Shown: positions 346-5,365 of the stretch, in pieces
Layout of the letters: each line of letters starts with the position of its first letter
Position numbering within the stretch: the first letter of the stretch is position 1
Assembly: GCA_947377705.1 (NCBI GenBank)
Contig: CANCGU010000187.1
Span: 1 to 5,365, forward strand
Reading direction: 5' to 3'
Source: Comamonadaceae bacterium
Lineage (GTDB): Bacteria; Pseudomonadota; Gammaproteobacteria; Burkholderiales; Burkholderiaceae
Length of the DNA: 5,365 bases
The notes under the pieces: model-generated
Told to the model about the DNA's origin: nothing
What the model saw: the letters and a program-made list of their open reading frames with translations, nothing else
The model's database searches: none
Position numbers and translations under genes: made by a program

Positions 346-909
346 ATGACGCTGGACCTTGAGTCCGCAGAACTTCCTGCGGACGCCATCGAAGTCGGGC
401 GCATTGCAGATGCTTGGGGCATCAAAGGCTGGTTCAAGGTCTTGCCCTATAGCGCTTCTCCGGAAGCGCTTTTTTCTTCCAAGCGTTGGTTTTTACAACC
501 CGCTGAACGAGGTGCCAAAACATTTGCCGGCACCGTGCTTCTGAAAGTCAAAGAAGCTAAAGAACACTCTGATTCTGTGGTGGCCACATCGGCCGAAGTG
601 CCAGACCGCAACGCCGCAGAACTGCTCAAAGGCGCACGCATTTTTGTCTCGCGTGCCAGCTTTCCTACCCCCGAACCCGACGAGTACTACTGGGTCGATC
701 TGATTGGCCTCGATGTGGTGAATCGCGAAGGCGTGGCCTTGGGAGCTGTCCGTGAGTTGCTGCATACGGGTCCACAAACCGTGTTAGTGCTTGCTTACGA
801 GGAAGAAGCTAAAACCAAAGAGCGCATGATTCCCTTCGTGTCTGCCTACATCGACACCGTCGATTTGGCTGGGCGCCGCATCACTGCCGATTGGCAAACC
901 GATTACTGA
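346..909 (+). CDS. rimM: ribosome maturation factor RimM (16S rRNA processing protein)
   Basis: Assembly factor that binds S19 and the head of the immature 30S subunit; it acts in the cytoplasm and is not a ribosomal protein. The 187-residue product has the two expected domains. The N-terminal RimM barrel has the signature VGRIADAWGIKGWFKV at residues 17-32. The C-terminal PRC-barrel begins around EYYWVDLIGL at 113-122 and ends with MIPFV at 161-165 and the final ITADW strand. A TTG directly after the rpsP stop (328) would add six residues but has no Shine-Dalgarno. The ATG at 346 has AAAGG at 334-338 with a 7-base spacer, so it is chosen. Codons 36-44 encode a terminator-like hairpin in the RNA (451-475), which may hold this gene and trmD below rpsP. 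Identity is very secure. Confidence 0.97.
   Translation: MTLDLESAELPADAIEVGRIADAWGIKGWFKVLPYSASPEALFSSKRWFLQPAERGAKTFAGTVLLKVKEAKEHSDSVVATSAEVPDRNAAELLKGARIFVSRASFPTPEPDEYYWVDLIGLDVVNREGVALGAVRELLHTGPQTVLVLAYEEEAKTKERMIPFVSAYIDTVDLAGRRITADWQTDY
451..475 (+). terminator. intrinsic-terminator-like hairpin inside rimM (possible operon attenuator)
   Basis: AGCGCTTC (451-458) and GAAGCGCT (463-470) form a perfect 8-bp stem. The loop is TCCG (459-462), an UNCG-type tetraloop closed by C-G, a class known to be extra stable. The right arm runs straight into T at 470-475, six in a row. This has the form of a Rho-independent terminator on the coding strand, about 105 bases into rimM. Function is inferred. 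A closely following ribosome would stop the hairpin from forming, so it may act only when rimM is poorly translated. Confidence 0.55.
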
Positions 910-2219: not shown

Positions 2220-2256
2220 AAAAGCCACCCAGGTGAAAGCTTGCGGTGGCTTTTTT
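2220..2256 (+). terminator. Rho-independent terminator after rplS
   Basis: AAAAGCCACC (2220-2229) pairs perfectly with GGTGGCTTTT (2245-2254) around a 15-base loop; the T-run covers 2251-2256. The GC core is GCCACC/GGTGGC. It closes the rpsP-rimM-trmD-rplS operon. The T-run ends one base before the ATG of the next gene (2258), so the Nudix ribosome-binding region is the right arm of this stem. Confidence 0.88.
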
Positions 2257-2257
2257 C

Positions 2258-2932
2258 ATGTCTAAACTTCCTGCCTTTGACCCACAGCAAGTGCCCGTGT
2301 TCCAAGTGGACACGCACTTGGACGCCGTGCCTGCGCAGCACCTCACCCCTGCGGCTTTGCAGGCGCGTTTTGCCAATCCGCCGCTGTGGAAGCCCGAGCT
2401 GGTGCGTGAACGCAATTTTTTAGACCGATCTCCTGCCCAAGCGGCGGTGTTGTTGGGTGTGGTCATGCGCGATGAACCCACGGTGCTCTTAACTCAGCGT
2501 CCGGCTCACATGTCCACGCATGCAGGTCAAATTGCTTTTGCCGGTGGCAAATGTGATGAAGGGGATGCTGACGTAACGGCCACCGCCTTACGCGAGGCGC
2601 AAGAGGAGGTGGGGTTGGCATCCTGCCATGTACAAGTGCTAGGCACGCTGCCTGAGTACGTGACGGGCTCTGCATTCCATGTGACGCCTGTGGTGGCGCT
2701 GATTTCTTCCGACATGACGCTGCATCTCAACACCGAAGAGGTTTCCGCCGCTTTTGAGGTCCCTTTGGCCTTTTTGATGAATCCAGCGCACCACCGATGG
2801 CACCGCTACACGCATGAAGGCGTGACGCGTGAATGGCTATCGATGCCCTACGAAGACGGTGAGCAGTTGAGGTTTGTTTGGGGTGCCACGGCGGGTATGT
2901 TGCGCAACTTTTACCGATTCTTGCGTGCTTGA
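2258..2932 (+). CDS. Nudix hydrolase, coenzyme A pyrophosphatase type (NudL/NUDT7-like)
   Basis: Probably cleaves the pyrophosphate bond of coenzyme A or acyl-CoA species to 3',5'-ADP and phosphopantetheine, using Mg2+ or Mn2+. The 224-residue protein has LLTQR at residues 77-81, HAGQIAFAGG at 88-97, and a Nudix helix REAQEEVGL at 112-120. As in other CoA-type members the classical first Glu of the Nudix box is absent, replaced by a D-rich GGKCDEGDADV stretch (96-106). The usual FPGG reads FAGG here. VWGATAGML near the C terminus (207-215) is also typical. The ATG at 2258 is chosen because the MSKLPAFDP start looks family-like; GTG at 2246 would add four residues. The only Shine-Dalgarno-like run, GGTGG (2245-2249), lies in the rplS terminator stem. 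The Nudix fold is certain; CoA as substrate is inferred from motifs. Confidence 0.92.
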   Translation: MSKLPAFDPQQVPVFQVDTHLDAVPAQHLTPAALQARFANPPLWKPELVRERNFLDRSPAQAAVLLGVVMRDEPTVLLTQRPAHMSTHAGQIAFAGGKCDEGDADVTATALREAQEEVGLASCHVQVLGTLPEYVTGSAFHVTPVVALISSDMTLHLNTEEVSAAFEVPLAFLMNPAHHRWHRYTHEGVTREWLSMPYEDGEQLRFVWGATAGMLRNFYRFLRA

Positions 2933-2959
2933 CGCCGCAGAACCGCGTCTACGGCCCGC

Positions 2960-2965
2960 TATCAT
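2960..2965 (+). promoter_or_regulatory. possible -10 box of a leaderless promoter for the AmpE-like gene
   Basis: TATCAT matches TATAAT at five of six bases and ends six bases before the ATG at 2972, so a start site at the usual distance would fall on or next to the start codon. No Shine-Dalgarno precedes that ATG, only GAG at 2968-2970, right against it. No good -35 is present at 16-18 bases. Suggestive only. Confidence 0.3.
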
Positions 2966-2971
2966 CCGAGT

Positions 2972-3928
2972 ATGAGTTTTCTTGCCCTGCTCCTTGCCCT
3001 GTTGATTGAACAAACTCGCCCCTTGGTGCGCGGTAATTGGGTGCATCGCAGCGTGAGAGCATGGATTTCTTGGATTAGCCAGACATTGGATGCTGGTCAC
3101 CCTCGTTTGGCGTGGACAACGTGGTCTTTGGCTGTCGGTGTGCCTGCCGTGATCGCGACGGTGATGCATTGGGTCTTGATCTGGCTATTTGGTTGGCCTA
3201 TTGCCATGGTTTGGAGTGTCGCCGTGCTCTATGTGACCTTGGGCTTTAGACAGTTCAGTCATTACTTCACAGATATTCGCGATGCCCTAGATGTGGGTGA
3301 TGAACGCTTGGCGCGTGAGTTATTGGCCGAATGGCAACATGTTGAAGTAGGTAGCCTGCCGCGCAGCGAGTTGCTGCGTCATGTGATTGAGCATTCAGTG
3401 CTGTCCGCGCATCACCATGTGTTTGGGGTTTTGACTTGGTTCTCCGTTTTGGCCGCCTTGGGGTTTGGTCCTGCGGGTGCTGTGATTTATCGCATGAGTG
3501 AAATGGTTTCGCGTGCGTGGCAGGCTTCTCCTAAACCTTCCAAAGGCTGGGTGAGTGACACCTTGCAAAATGCAGCGCGCGATGCTTGGCATCGTATCGA
3601 TTGGTTGCCCGCACGCTTGACGGCCGTGGCATTTGCCGTGGTGGGTAACTTTGAAGAAGCCATCGATTGCTGGCGCAATCACGCGCAGCGTTTCCCTGAT
3701 GACAACGATGGCGTCGTTCTGGCTGCGACAGCGGGCGCTTTGAATGTGCGCTTGGGTGGAGAGGCTTTGCGAGCAGATGCTGAAGACCAGGTACAGGACA
3801 GCGAAAGCACGCCGGGTCGCACGCCTGAAATGGCGCATCTGCCCAGCGTGGTGGGCTTGGTCTGGCGCACTGTGGTGCTGTGGATGGTCTTGTTGGCGTT
3901 GTTGACTTTGGCCCGTTTGCTGGGTTAA
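2972..3928 (+). CDS. AmpE-like / CobD-CbiB family integral membrane protein
   Basis: A 318-residue inner-membrane protein. Hydrophobic segments lie at about 1-18, 50-72, 74-92, 150-172, 213-226 and 294-317; the last is a C-terminal anchor. From memory, residues 119-160 (AEW.HVEVGSLPRSELLRHVIE..) and 208-234 (RIDWLPARLTAVAFAVVGNF and following) resemble E. coli AmpE, in which the matching stretch reads LDWVPVRLAGVVYALIG. Such proteins are often annotated CobD/CbiB, but no cobalamin genes are nearby, so a direct role in adenosylcobinamide synthesis is doubtful. AmpE itself is tied to beta-lactamase regulation with AmpD; neither ampD nor ampC is in view. A charged loop (about 267-288) precedes the final anchor. 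It lies 39 bases after the Nudix gene and may have its own leaderless promoter. Family placement is good; function is not known from sequence. Confidence 0.82.
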   Translation: MSFLALLLALLIEQTRPLVRGNWVHRSVRAWISWISQTLDAGHPRLAWTTWSLAVGVPAVIATVMHWVLIWLFGWPIAMVWSVAVLYVTLGFRQFSHYFTDIRDALDVGDERLARELLAEWQHVEVGSLPRSELLRHVIEHSVLSAHHHVFGVLTWFSVLAALGFGPAGAVIYRMSEMVSRAWQASPKPSKGWVSDTLQNAARDAWHRIDWLPARLTAVAFAVVGNFEEAIDCWRNHAQRFPDDNDGVVLAATAGALNVRLGGEALRADAEDQVQDSESTPGRTPEMAHLPSVVGLVWRTVVLWMVLLALLTLARLLG

Positions 3929-3938
3929 GCCTCGCCCA

Positions 3939-4826
3939 TTAATAGTTCACAGGCTGCGTGAGTTCGGCAAACAACATGCCGTAGAGCTTGTAACGCGAGG
4001 GGCTGATGGCCCCAGTGGCCACCGCATCTTGTACCCCGCATGAAGGCTCGTGCAAATGCGTGCAGTTGTAAAACTTGCAATTCGCCACATGCGGTTTGAA
4101 GTCGGGCATGTAGGCGGCCAGCTGCATGGCATCAATGTGATGCACGCCAAACTCTTGAAATCCGGGTGAATCAATCAAGCCTGTTTTGCGCTCCGCATCC
4201 ACCCAATGCCACGTCGTTGATGTGGTGGTGTGTTTGCCTGAGTTCAGGGCTTGTGAAATTTCAGCCGTGGCCACATTGGCATGTGGCACGAGGGCGTTGA
4301 TGAGGGTGCTTTTGCCTGTGCCTGAAGGGCCGAGTACCAGCGTGGTTTTGTGCTTCAAGCGTTCAGGCAAGTCTCCCAAATCACCCGACCTGAAGGCGCC
4401 TTGCAGCACGGTGTAGCCCATCGCCACGTAAGGCGCTAGGCGGGCGAAGGCGCGTGCATGCAGCTCGGTTAAATCGCGCTTGTTGAGCACGATGATGGGC
4501 GTGATGTGCTCGGCCTCGGCTGCAATGAGTGCGCGTGTGAGCTGCATTTCAGAGAATTCAGGCTCGGCCGCCAACAGAATTAACACTTGGTCTAAATTGG
4601 CCGCAAACGACTTCGTGCGAATCTCGTCTTGCCGGTAAAACAAGTTGTGGCGAGGCTCTACTTTTTCGATGGTGCCTTCGTCAGTGCTGGCTAGCCATTG
4701 CACGCGGTCACCCACCACCACTTGGCTTTTCTTGCCACGCGGGTGGCAAATACGACGTTCGCCATCAGGAGTTTCTACCACGCAGTGTCGTCCGTGGCTG
4801 GCCACCACCAAGCCGCTTTGTTTCAT
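3939..4826 (-). CDS. rsgA: ribosome small-subunit-dependent GTPase RsgA (YjeQ/EngC)
   Basis: Circularly permuted GTPase that binds the 30S decoding region late in assembly and is stimulated by the 30S subunit. The 295-residue product has an N-terminal OB-fold (about 1-70). The permuted G domain follows: NKRD (G4) at 115-118, the P-loop GPSGTGKST (G1) at 166-174, KHTTT (G2) at 198-202 and DSPG (G3) at 219-222. The C-terminal zinc site has C250, C255, H257 and C263, all present. A longer frame would start 21 residues upstream, but that extension lies inside the M48 gene and looks unlike the family. The ATG at 4826 is chosen because MKQSGLVV begins the OB-fold and its ATG overlaps the M48 stop as ATGA. 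Only a weak GGATGG precedes it, so translational coupling is likely. Identity is certain. Confidence 0.97.
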   Translation of the reverse strand: MKQSGLVVASHGRHCVVETPDGERRICHPRGKKSQVVVGDRVQWLASTDEGTIEKVEPRHNLFYRQDEIRTKSFAANLDQVLILLAAEPEFSEMQLTRALIAAEAEHITPIIVLNKRDLTELHARAFARLAPYVAMGYTVLQGAFRSGDLGDLPERLKHKTTLVLGPSGTGKSTLINALVPHANVATAEISQALNSGKHTTTSTTWHWVDAERKTGLIDSPGFQEFGVHHIDAMQLAAYMPDFKPHVANCKFYNCTHLHEPSCGVQDAVATGAISPSRYKLYGMLFAELTQPVNY

Positions 4827-5365
4827 GCGGCCATCCGCGCCAAGCGTTGTGAAGCGGGTGGGTGTGAGTAGTAAAACGCTACATACCAAGGGTCGGGCGT
4901 GAGAGTGGAGGCGTTGTCTTGGTAAAGCTTGAGCAAGGCGCTGGCAAGCGACTTGCCATCACTGTTGGCGACGGCGTAAGCGTCGGCTTCAAACTCAAAT
5001 GTGCGGGAACGGCGTGCCGACAAGGGAGAGACAAAGAAAGTGAACAAAGGCAGCACCAGCATGAACAGTAACAAGGCCAATGCGCTGTTGTTGCCGTTGA
5101 GGTTAGGCATCACGCCCAAGCCGGTGTAAAACCAAACCTGTTGCGATACCCAGCCGAGCAAGGCCAAGCCCGCCAGACTGGTGGCAAAGCTGGTGGCCAT
5201 CATTTTTAAAATGTGGCGATGCTTGAAGTGGCCTAGCTCGTGCGCCAGTACAGCCTCCATTTCATCGCCATTGAGTTGGGCCAGCAGCGTGTCGAAAAAC
5301 ACCACGCGTTTGGCCGCGCCAAAGCCTGTGAAGAATGCATTGGAGTGGGCCGAGCGGCGGCTGCC
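4823..5365 (-). CDS. M48/Ste24-type membrane zinc metalloprotease (5' end beyond the window)
   Basis: Partial gene: the last 180 codons and the stop are present, and the N-terminal part lies beyond position 5365. The reading frame is open to the edge, beginning GSRRSAHSNAFFTGFGAAKR, a stretch typical of Ste24/CAAX-protease-1 relatives. The zinc site HELGH is at visible residues 42-46. The third ligand is Glu126 in EFEADAYA (124-131), with Asp128 two residues on. YYSHPPASQRLARM (165-178) is the usual C-terminal SHPP element. Two hydrophobic segments lie at about 56-83 and 95-112. The protein would sit in the inner membrane and may take part in protein quality control; the bacterial substrate is unknown. 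The internal GTG at 5305 is not the start, because conserved family sequence continues upstream. The stop overlaps the rsgA start by four bases. Confidence 0.93.
   Translation of the reverse strand, partial: GSRRSAHSNAFFTGFGAAKRVVFFDTLLAQLNGDEMEAVLAHELGHFKHRHILKMMATSFATSLAGLALLGWVSQQVWFYTGLGVMPNLNGNNSALALLLFMLVLPLFTFFVSPLSARRSRTFEFEADAYAVANSDGKSLASALLKLYQDNASTLTPDPWYVAFYYSHPPASQRLARMAA

Follow-up and report, generated by a model that had tools for sequence, protein, structure and literature searches.

Two conserved hairpins within rimM as a probable transcription attenuator of the rpsP-rimM-trmD-rplS operon in Comamonadaceae

The operon and the hairpin within rimM

The DNA analysed here, a stretch of 5,365 nucleotides from a Comamonadaceae bacterium (hereafter, the window), carries on its forward strand rpsP (ribosomal protein S16; 73-327), rimM (16S rRNA processing and 30S assembly factor; 346-909, 187 codons from an ATG start), trmD (tRNA m1G37 methyltransferase; 933-1694) and rplS (ribosomal protein L19; 1806-2201). 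All four were recognized as open reading frames, and rpsP was also placed in relatives by tblastn. A spacer of 18 nt (328-345) separates rpsP from rimM. The closest relatives of the window's rimM are locus L001 (98%) and Limnohabitans sp. Jir61 (94%), and the host is a Limnohabitans-like member of the Comamonadaceae. Among 263 loci, 231 showed all four genes arranged in this way; for the remaining 32, the sequence covered left out rplS or both trmD and rplS. Behind rplS, a terminator-like site with a 9-bp stem, a 15-nt loop and T6 (2221-2256) was found by eye; its loop exceeds the limits of our scans. Further downstream (2246-5365) are genes that, judging from their translations, we take to encode a NUDIX hydrolase and a CobD/CbiB-like membrane protein and, on the minus strand, presumably an RsgA GTPase and an M48 peptidase cut by the window end. 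Nowhere in the operon is codon choice as unusual as at the start of rpsP (73-97), where codon 5 is CGA in 159 of 177 sequences.

A preliminary description of the window had pointed to a hairpin resembling an intrinsic terminator within rimM, and it placed the site correctly: a stem, a UCCG loop and six T occupy 451-475, in rimM codons 36-44. The hairpin itself (451-470, codons 36-42) has a GC-rich stem of 8 bp with arms AGCGCTTC (451-458) and GAAGCGCT (463-470), a loop of 4 nt (TCCG, 459-462), five G-C pairs among its eight and an energy of -13.5 kcal/mol. The T-run (470-475) adjoins the stem, and its first T closes the stem by pairing with A451, which leaves the five T that had been described as following it. 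The run opens a longer U-tract, TTTTTTCTTCC (470-480, codons 42-45), that is kept at synonymous sites. The terminator sits at codon 42 of 187, 125 nt inside the gene.

How readily such a site would arise by chance depends on how strictly it is defined. A loose terminator pattern was not enriched in the window (8 found, against a shuffle mean of 8.0, sd 3.0), and the fold of 440-490 taken alone was modestly unusual (z -2.10; 6 of 200 shuffles). The strict class (8-bp Watson-Crick stem, loop of 3-10 nt, then T5, plus strand) was found once in the window and twice in 400 Markov-1 windows. The earlier estimate that an 8-bp stem of this kind is expected somewhat under once per window agrees with our simulations (1.01 per window); the roughly thousandfold reduction then allowed for the T-run was too large, as simulated windows give about 200-fold. 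When synonymous codons were permuted within the window's rimM, an equal site appeared in 2 of 1000 trials. For the 6-bp version seen in relatives, the same permutation gave a match in up to 131 of 1000 trials (L068); the argument against chance alone is weaker there, and the case for these relatives therefore rests on conservation.

Conservation and covariation among relatives

In three surveys, 7 of 299, 7 of 114 and 3 of 150 genomes gave no rimM match. From the 292 matching genomes of the first survey, 30 gave loci directly and 80 more were taken; a further survey yielded loci from 30 of 40 genomes, and those of 114 and 150 genomes contributed their best 30 matches each, leaving distant groups thinly sampled. 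The 282 rimM loci collected reduced to 263 distinct ones. Of these, 206 share at least 50% identity with the RimM of the window, and 57 are more distant. The site was scored as intact when none of the five core stem pairs was broken and T occupied at least five of the seven tail bases. By this rule stem and T-run are intact in 120 of the 206, and in none of the 57 rimM sequences below 50% identity. Genera with an intact site include Limnohabitans, Rhodoferax, Ramlibacter and Caenimonas. A run of six T occurs in 105 of the 120, a count favored by the rule itself, which already requires 5 T in 7. The five core pairs were present in 120 of 129 sequences with the T-tail versus 14 of 77 without it, a contrast partly fed by amino acid changes. 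Among the intact sequences with all eight pairs, 28 of 79 have the TCCG loop, which shows that a UNCG loop is not essential.

Codon choice tells a similar story in a set free of the intact rule, namely the 178 sequences at 55% identity or more, which differs from the set of 206 (50% or more, with extra loci). Here, codons 36-45 of rimM show the most unusual choice in the four genes after the rpsP start, and 8-codon windows around codons 42-45 are second only to that start. Of 539 columns, those of codons 42, 44 and 45 rank with the most unusual (CTT in 114/177, TCT in 109/146 and TCC in 123/143, respectively). Forty-two of the intact sequences are GC-rich (trmD GC3 of at least 0.8); elsewhere in the operon, CTT makes up 3.5% of their Leu codons, TCT 2.4% of Ser and TTT 15.6% of Phe, with the reservation that codon counts at 42-44 within the intact set are helped by the tail rule.

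Positions 456 and 465, the third positions of codons 37 and 40, are paired in the stem, and they covary. In 138 sequences the pair has a phi of 0.77, the highest among the 693 Ala x Glu column pairs of the operon, the next reaching 0.41. Among GCY/GAR sequences chosen by their tail alone (n=117), the combinations were CG 73, TA 37, TG 6 and CA 1; without the tail (n=21) they were CG 13, CA 7 and TA 1. Both the phi ranking and the tail-only selection are free of choosing by intact terminator. The eight C-A cases, all non-intact, follow from the intact rule and were not counted as evidence. On the tree, on which 192 of the 206 sequences were placed (15 of 263 were left off for short alignments), the two positions changed the same way in 4.7 and the opposite way in 0 of 5 independent pairs (median p 0.06), too few pairs for significance. 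Loss of the pairing through synonymous changes in close relatives, which had been named as the outcome that would speak against the site, is not what we observed: the pairs covary and the T-run is kept. Based on these comparisons, we conclude that the site is not a product of chance and consider it likely that the predicted terminator is kept by selection within rimM.

Folding the stretch before the terminator revealed a very stable structure over the rimM start. Its inner stem, here called P1 (363-384, codons 6-13), pairs 363-370 with 377-384 around a loop at 371-376, is conserved beyond close kin and covaries at synonymous sites. Positions 369 and 378, the third positions of codons 8 and 11, are Watson-Crick paired in 88 of 106 intact sequences versus 32.9 expected, using four types of pair (CG 41, AT 25, TA 15, GC 7). 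Over the 154 usable sequences, no other of the 38,780 fourfold-site pairs shows so large an excess of Watson-Crick combinations. In spacer-terminator sequences (described below) it is Watson-Crick in 9 of 26 (5.6 expected), and in sequences with neither terminator in 15 of 22 (7.8 expected). A scan of 13,066 position pairs across rimM codons 1-75 in the 120 intact sequences ranked 366x381 first, 369x378 second and the terminator pair 456x465 fourth. That fourth rank is weak by itself, since the third-ranked pair (544x551) and others near it match no known structure and the set was chosen for an intact terminator.

Taken together, the two hairpins scored 0.215 for covariation versus 0.098 when shuffled (none of 500 shuffles reached it) and no more than 0.104 when slid along the alignment, in a gap-free set of intact sequences only (74 sequences, 73 distinct rows, from L001-L080 plus the window) in which related rows inflate the scores and only the P1 counts are unselected, since the set was chosen for an intact terminator. 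Two of five measures did not beat shuffles in this set: double-change pairs (4 vs 3.4; 222/500) and further pair types (15 vs 13.9; 104/500). RNAalifold predicted both hairpins unaided. By a five-pair rule, P1 is present in 88 of 120 intact sequences (failing in 32), 2 of 32 with a spacer terminator, 6 of 54 with neither form and 1 of 57 below 50% identity. On the tree, P1 and the terminator changed the same way in 3.3 and the opposite way in 0.2 of 7 pairs, which is not significant (median p 0.25).

The start region of the window's rimM is strongly folded, with z values of -7.5 and -5.2 in two runs, the whole forming a long imperfect hairpin over the start codon (336-415). In 47 sequences at 78% identity or more, the mean z was -2.78, versus -0.98 and 0.08 for controls further into rimM. 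Outside these close kin, the fold does not separate the 75 other intact sequences (-1.15) from the 54 with neither terminator (-1.23); means were -1.02 in the 57 distant and +0.61 in the 32 spacer-terminator sequences. The outer stem over the start codon is thus local to the window and its close kin. Compensatory changes in this hairpin were seen by eye in L004, L010 and L020, all close kin.

Terminators in the spacer and a putative restart before rplS

Many relatives in which the rimM site is not intact carry a strong hairpin with a U-tract in the rpsP-rimM spacer, at the place corresponding to 328-345 of the window. This was found in 32 of 86 non-intact versus 2 of 120 intact sequences, one of the latter weak; a second rule gave 30 and 1. 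Two loci (L064, by two other rules, and L110) have spacer terminators by other rules and fail the tail rule behind the count of 32, and L089 and L090 enter only through the rule behind that count. In the tree as drawn, one block holds 28 of the 31 spacer-terminator sequences by the second rule, together with the Acidovorax loci L064 and L067; L059, within this block, has the rimM form. Codon 42 of rimM in the 32 spacer-terminator genomes is CTG or TTG in 28 and CTT in 2. On the tree, the spacer and rimM terminators changed the same way in 0.0 and the opposite way in 2.7 of 5 pairs, which is not significant (median p 0.25), and independent evolutionary switches are few. From the distributions of the spacer terminators and P1, we read the stop between rpsP and rimM as existing in two forms, with P1 accompanying the coding form. 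Neither form was found in 54 of the 206 sequences at 50% identity or more and in 54 of the 57 more distant ones, indicating that the operon can do without the stop.

Several individual loci deserve mention. L119 (G022) has both a spacer and a rimM terminator, the sole clear case, and is a possible intermediate. The spacer terminators of L089 and L090 have AA between stem and T7, unlike the Acidovorax type, and lie outside its block, possibly representing another independent replacement. L109 combines a spacer terminator with a rimM stem that has a poor tail, the spacer hairpin of L066 is weak and irregular, and the assignment of L127 is doubtful. A relaxed terminator scan proved noisy, with, for example, 186 minus-strand matches in rplS and a class of 11 with both forms resting mostly on one doubtful match; its classes were for this reason left unused.

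The rimM stem is the weakest of the three kinds compared, with a median energy of -13.5 kcal/mol (n=120) versus -18.3 after rplS (160 matches) and -24.7 in spacers (n=32). This is what one would expect of a leaky stop placed in a gene whose remainder still has to be transcribed, and fits partial termination, but it also fits weak or no termination.

At the other end of trmD, a TATAAT overlapping the stop codon (1690-1695) is a putative -10 element of an rplS promoter. We compared it in the 178 of the 206 sequences that have trmD and rplS within the stretch. It was the best -10 in 166 and present before rplS in 167, regardless of the state of rimM (96/102 intact, 28/28 spacer, 43/48 neither), and in 6 of 53 sequences below 50% identity. 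A good -35 is absent in the window (at most 2/6 match at spacing 16-18), the relatives' is often poor (best match of at least 4/6 in 55 of 167), and a promoter scan of the window found none; for these reasons we treat the rplS promoter as putative. It is needed by the scheme proposed below if S16 and L19 are to match.

Between this element and rplS lies a conserved leader (1696-1805) with blocks GATCCTCT, found in 162 of 167 sequences, and GCGCGG.CA.GATC....GAGG; over 1690-1805 the blocks also read GGCTTTTCGATCCTCTG..CCGGC and GCGCGG.CA.GATC....GAGGAAA. Six of the 167 leaders, each over 175 nt, were left out of this comparison. A CCTCT could pair with AGAGG before the rplS start, and a short helix of four pairs with some covariation is predicted. 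The leader has no Rfam match in the window, and we regard it as a candidate bL19 leader. The trmD-rplS gap has a median of 117.5 nt in the 178 sequences and 43 nt in the 53 distant ones.

Proposed attenuation and comparison with known systems

Our studies of these sequences show two hairpins, a T-run, their conservation and covariation, and their joint distribution. The preliminary description had suggested attenuation between rpsP and rimM-trmD, and the covariation and the kept T-run favor that suggestion. We consider it likely that an attenuator embedded in the coding sequence, kept by selection, parts the output of S16 from that of RimM and TrmD, with rplS restarted separately. Having passed rpsP, RNA polymerase would transcribe P1, followed by the terminator hairpin and U-tract. 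Some polymerases would stop near 471-476, giving a short rpsP mRNA, and the rest would read into rimM-trmD; rplS would be restarted from its own putative promoter at the trmD stop. The predicted outcome is abundant S16 and L19 but scarce RimM and TrmD. The location is that of an intra-operon attenuator, with the highly needed rpsP before it and the less needed rimM-trmD after it, and the two conserved hairpins in the first quarter of rimM probably let many relatives make much S16 and little RimM and TrmD. Since a stopped message would end in rimM codon 43 without a stop codon, a ribosome that had started on rimM should need rescue.

Translation of rimM might usually mask the terminator hairpin, and this is where P1 may come in. 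It lies 18-39 nt into rimM, a short way past the region that a ribosome covers during initiation. Most likely it slows ribosome entry, so that no trailing ribosome masks the terminator, and probably this is how P1 keeps the stop effective. The observation that P1 is mostly missing where the stop precedes the rimM start fits such a role in ribosome exclusion. A close-following ribosome can prevent intrinsic termination, as demonstrated with a pyr-leader reporter in E. coli (PMC5021804).

P1 could instead act as a pause hairpin or be bound by a factor such as S16 or RimM, with P1 and the terminator together setting read-through according to ribosome supply. Such regulated attenuation is possible, and we hold it to be doubtful. 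P1 has the best-supported covarying helix, stands upstream of the terminator as the elements of leader attenuators do, and largely goes with it; against this, its loop varies, following the codons, and folding five stretches of the window gave no competing fold that would exclude the terminator, which pairs at a probability of 0.78-1.0. Codon 18 was considered as an antiterminator partner of the stem. It reads GGG in 87 of the 120 intact sequences and in 36 of the 86 others, and in close kin it belongs to the outer stem that covers the rimM start; folding of the window did not favor its pairing with the terminator stem. Nor does the window match a known RNA family: Rfam gave 0 matches at gathering threshold (best, 17.1 bits vs 43), and two matches below the threshold, to which the terminator contributed most, were rejected. 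A bolder form of the idea, to which we give some room without expecting it to hold, is that P1 and the terminator are one dedicated cis-regulatory RNA lying wholly in coding sequence. This RNA would sense ribosome supply, either by way of rimM translation or by binding a protein, and would tie the dose of RimM and TrmD to S16 synthesis; one group has a plain spacer terminator instead.

The site could also act with little termination at all, if P1 and the start fold throttle rimM translation while the hairpin and U-tract serve as a 3'-end stabilizer or a ribosome brake. The buried rimM start of the window and close kin speaks for this, and it recalls the translational control reportedly exerted on E. 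coli rimM; neither decay nor braking, however, predicts a T-run, and the one observed adjoins the stem, accompanies it and is maintained through rare codons. In other genomes, the corresponding position of the operon is occupied by a plain spacer terminator instead. We therefore judge this account improbable. The chances are slimmer still that CTT TTT TCT is kept as a slow-codon cluster at which ribosomes pause, or as a site where they slip on T6. These codons are indeed uncommon in the 42 GC-rich intact sequences, but a pause would not predict that codon 37 covaries with codon 40, and frameshifting was rejected because the shifted frames are not conserved: across the intact sequences, the distance to a stop varies from 5 to 120 codons in the +1 frame and from 2 to 567 in the -1 frame. 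Least credible is that the site reflects chance, or an SA.PEALFSS peptide written with ordinary codons. The peptide is well conserved and the permutation matches for the 6-bp version (L068) show how often a short stem can arise, yet the window's own permutation result, the unusual and covarying third positions, and the same PEALFSS peptide in spacer-terminator genomes (L118, L121 and L172), members of the group that mostly uses CTG or TTG, all argue against it.

Partial stops behind ribosomal protein genes are already known, as are terminators inside coding sequences. In the rplL-rpoB and rpsU-dnaG pairs of E. coli, a partial stop after the ribosomal protein gene lowers the non-ribosomal genes that follow; those stops lie between genes, whereas the one in the window lies inside rimM. 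Control of E. coli rimM, reportedly by mRNA folding at the level of translation, likewise gives low RimM in the same operon, and the start region of the window is folded too. The excess of S16 and L19 in E. coli and its cause, which the preliminary description had brought up, were not found in the literature matched on rimM and trmD. In literature on these two genes, searched mostly outside subscription papers, we found no report of a terminator inside rimM. Nor was any paper found that brings together Term-seq, Burkholderia and betaproteobacteria. According to a 2024 review, information on how this operon is regulated is lacking (PMC10931766).

In brfA of B. subtilis and arfA of E. coli, a stem-loop within the ORF stops transcription and leaves an mRNA without a stop codon; the arfA stem-loop is also cut by RNase III, and synonymous mutations abolish the brfA terminator (PMC8012679, PMC3989581). 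There, the shortened protein is itself the active rescue factor, and termination occurs near the ORF end. In contrast, the stop in rimM comes at codon 42 and its product would be wasted, so that neither the position nor the gene is that of arfA/brfA-type non-stop regulation. ORF-internal 3' ends, some by predicted intrinsic termination, have been found in E. coli by RNA sequencing, whereas the evidence for the rimM terminator is evolutionary; the main text of that study does not name rimM, rpsP or trmD (PMC7815308). The sub-threshold Rfam match RF02871 (ncS54), a Burkholderia sRNA whose consensus ends in nearly the same hairpin and U-run, has a 3' end marked as defined in dRNA-seq data, but it comes from a list of sRNAs found in intergenic regions, and the match is terminator-based (PMC5688073).

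If our reading holds, many Comamonadaceae use a transcription stop hidden in codons and a restart before rplS, and a regulatory RNA that acts on an operon can be housed in one of the operon's own genes, at no cost in extra DNA. We would then predict that ribosome rescue has to deal with a burden of non-stop rimM messages, and that trmD expression could shift when rimM is recoded synonymously. In the B. subtilis operon, a terminator separates rpsP-ylqC from rimM, rplS is preceded by a promoter that gives a monocistronic rplS mRNA, and the trmD ORF contains a potential terminator or attenuator (PMC10100781). There, the stop lies between genes, after ylqC; here, it is written in codons inside rimM, with a second covarying hairpin upstream. 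Taken together, the two operons would show the same expression logic built from different parts.
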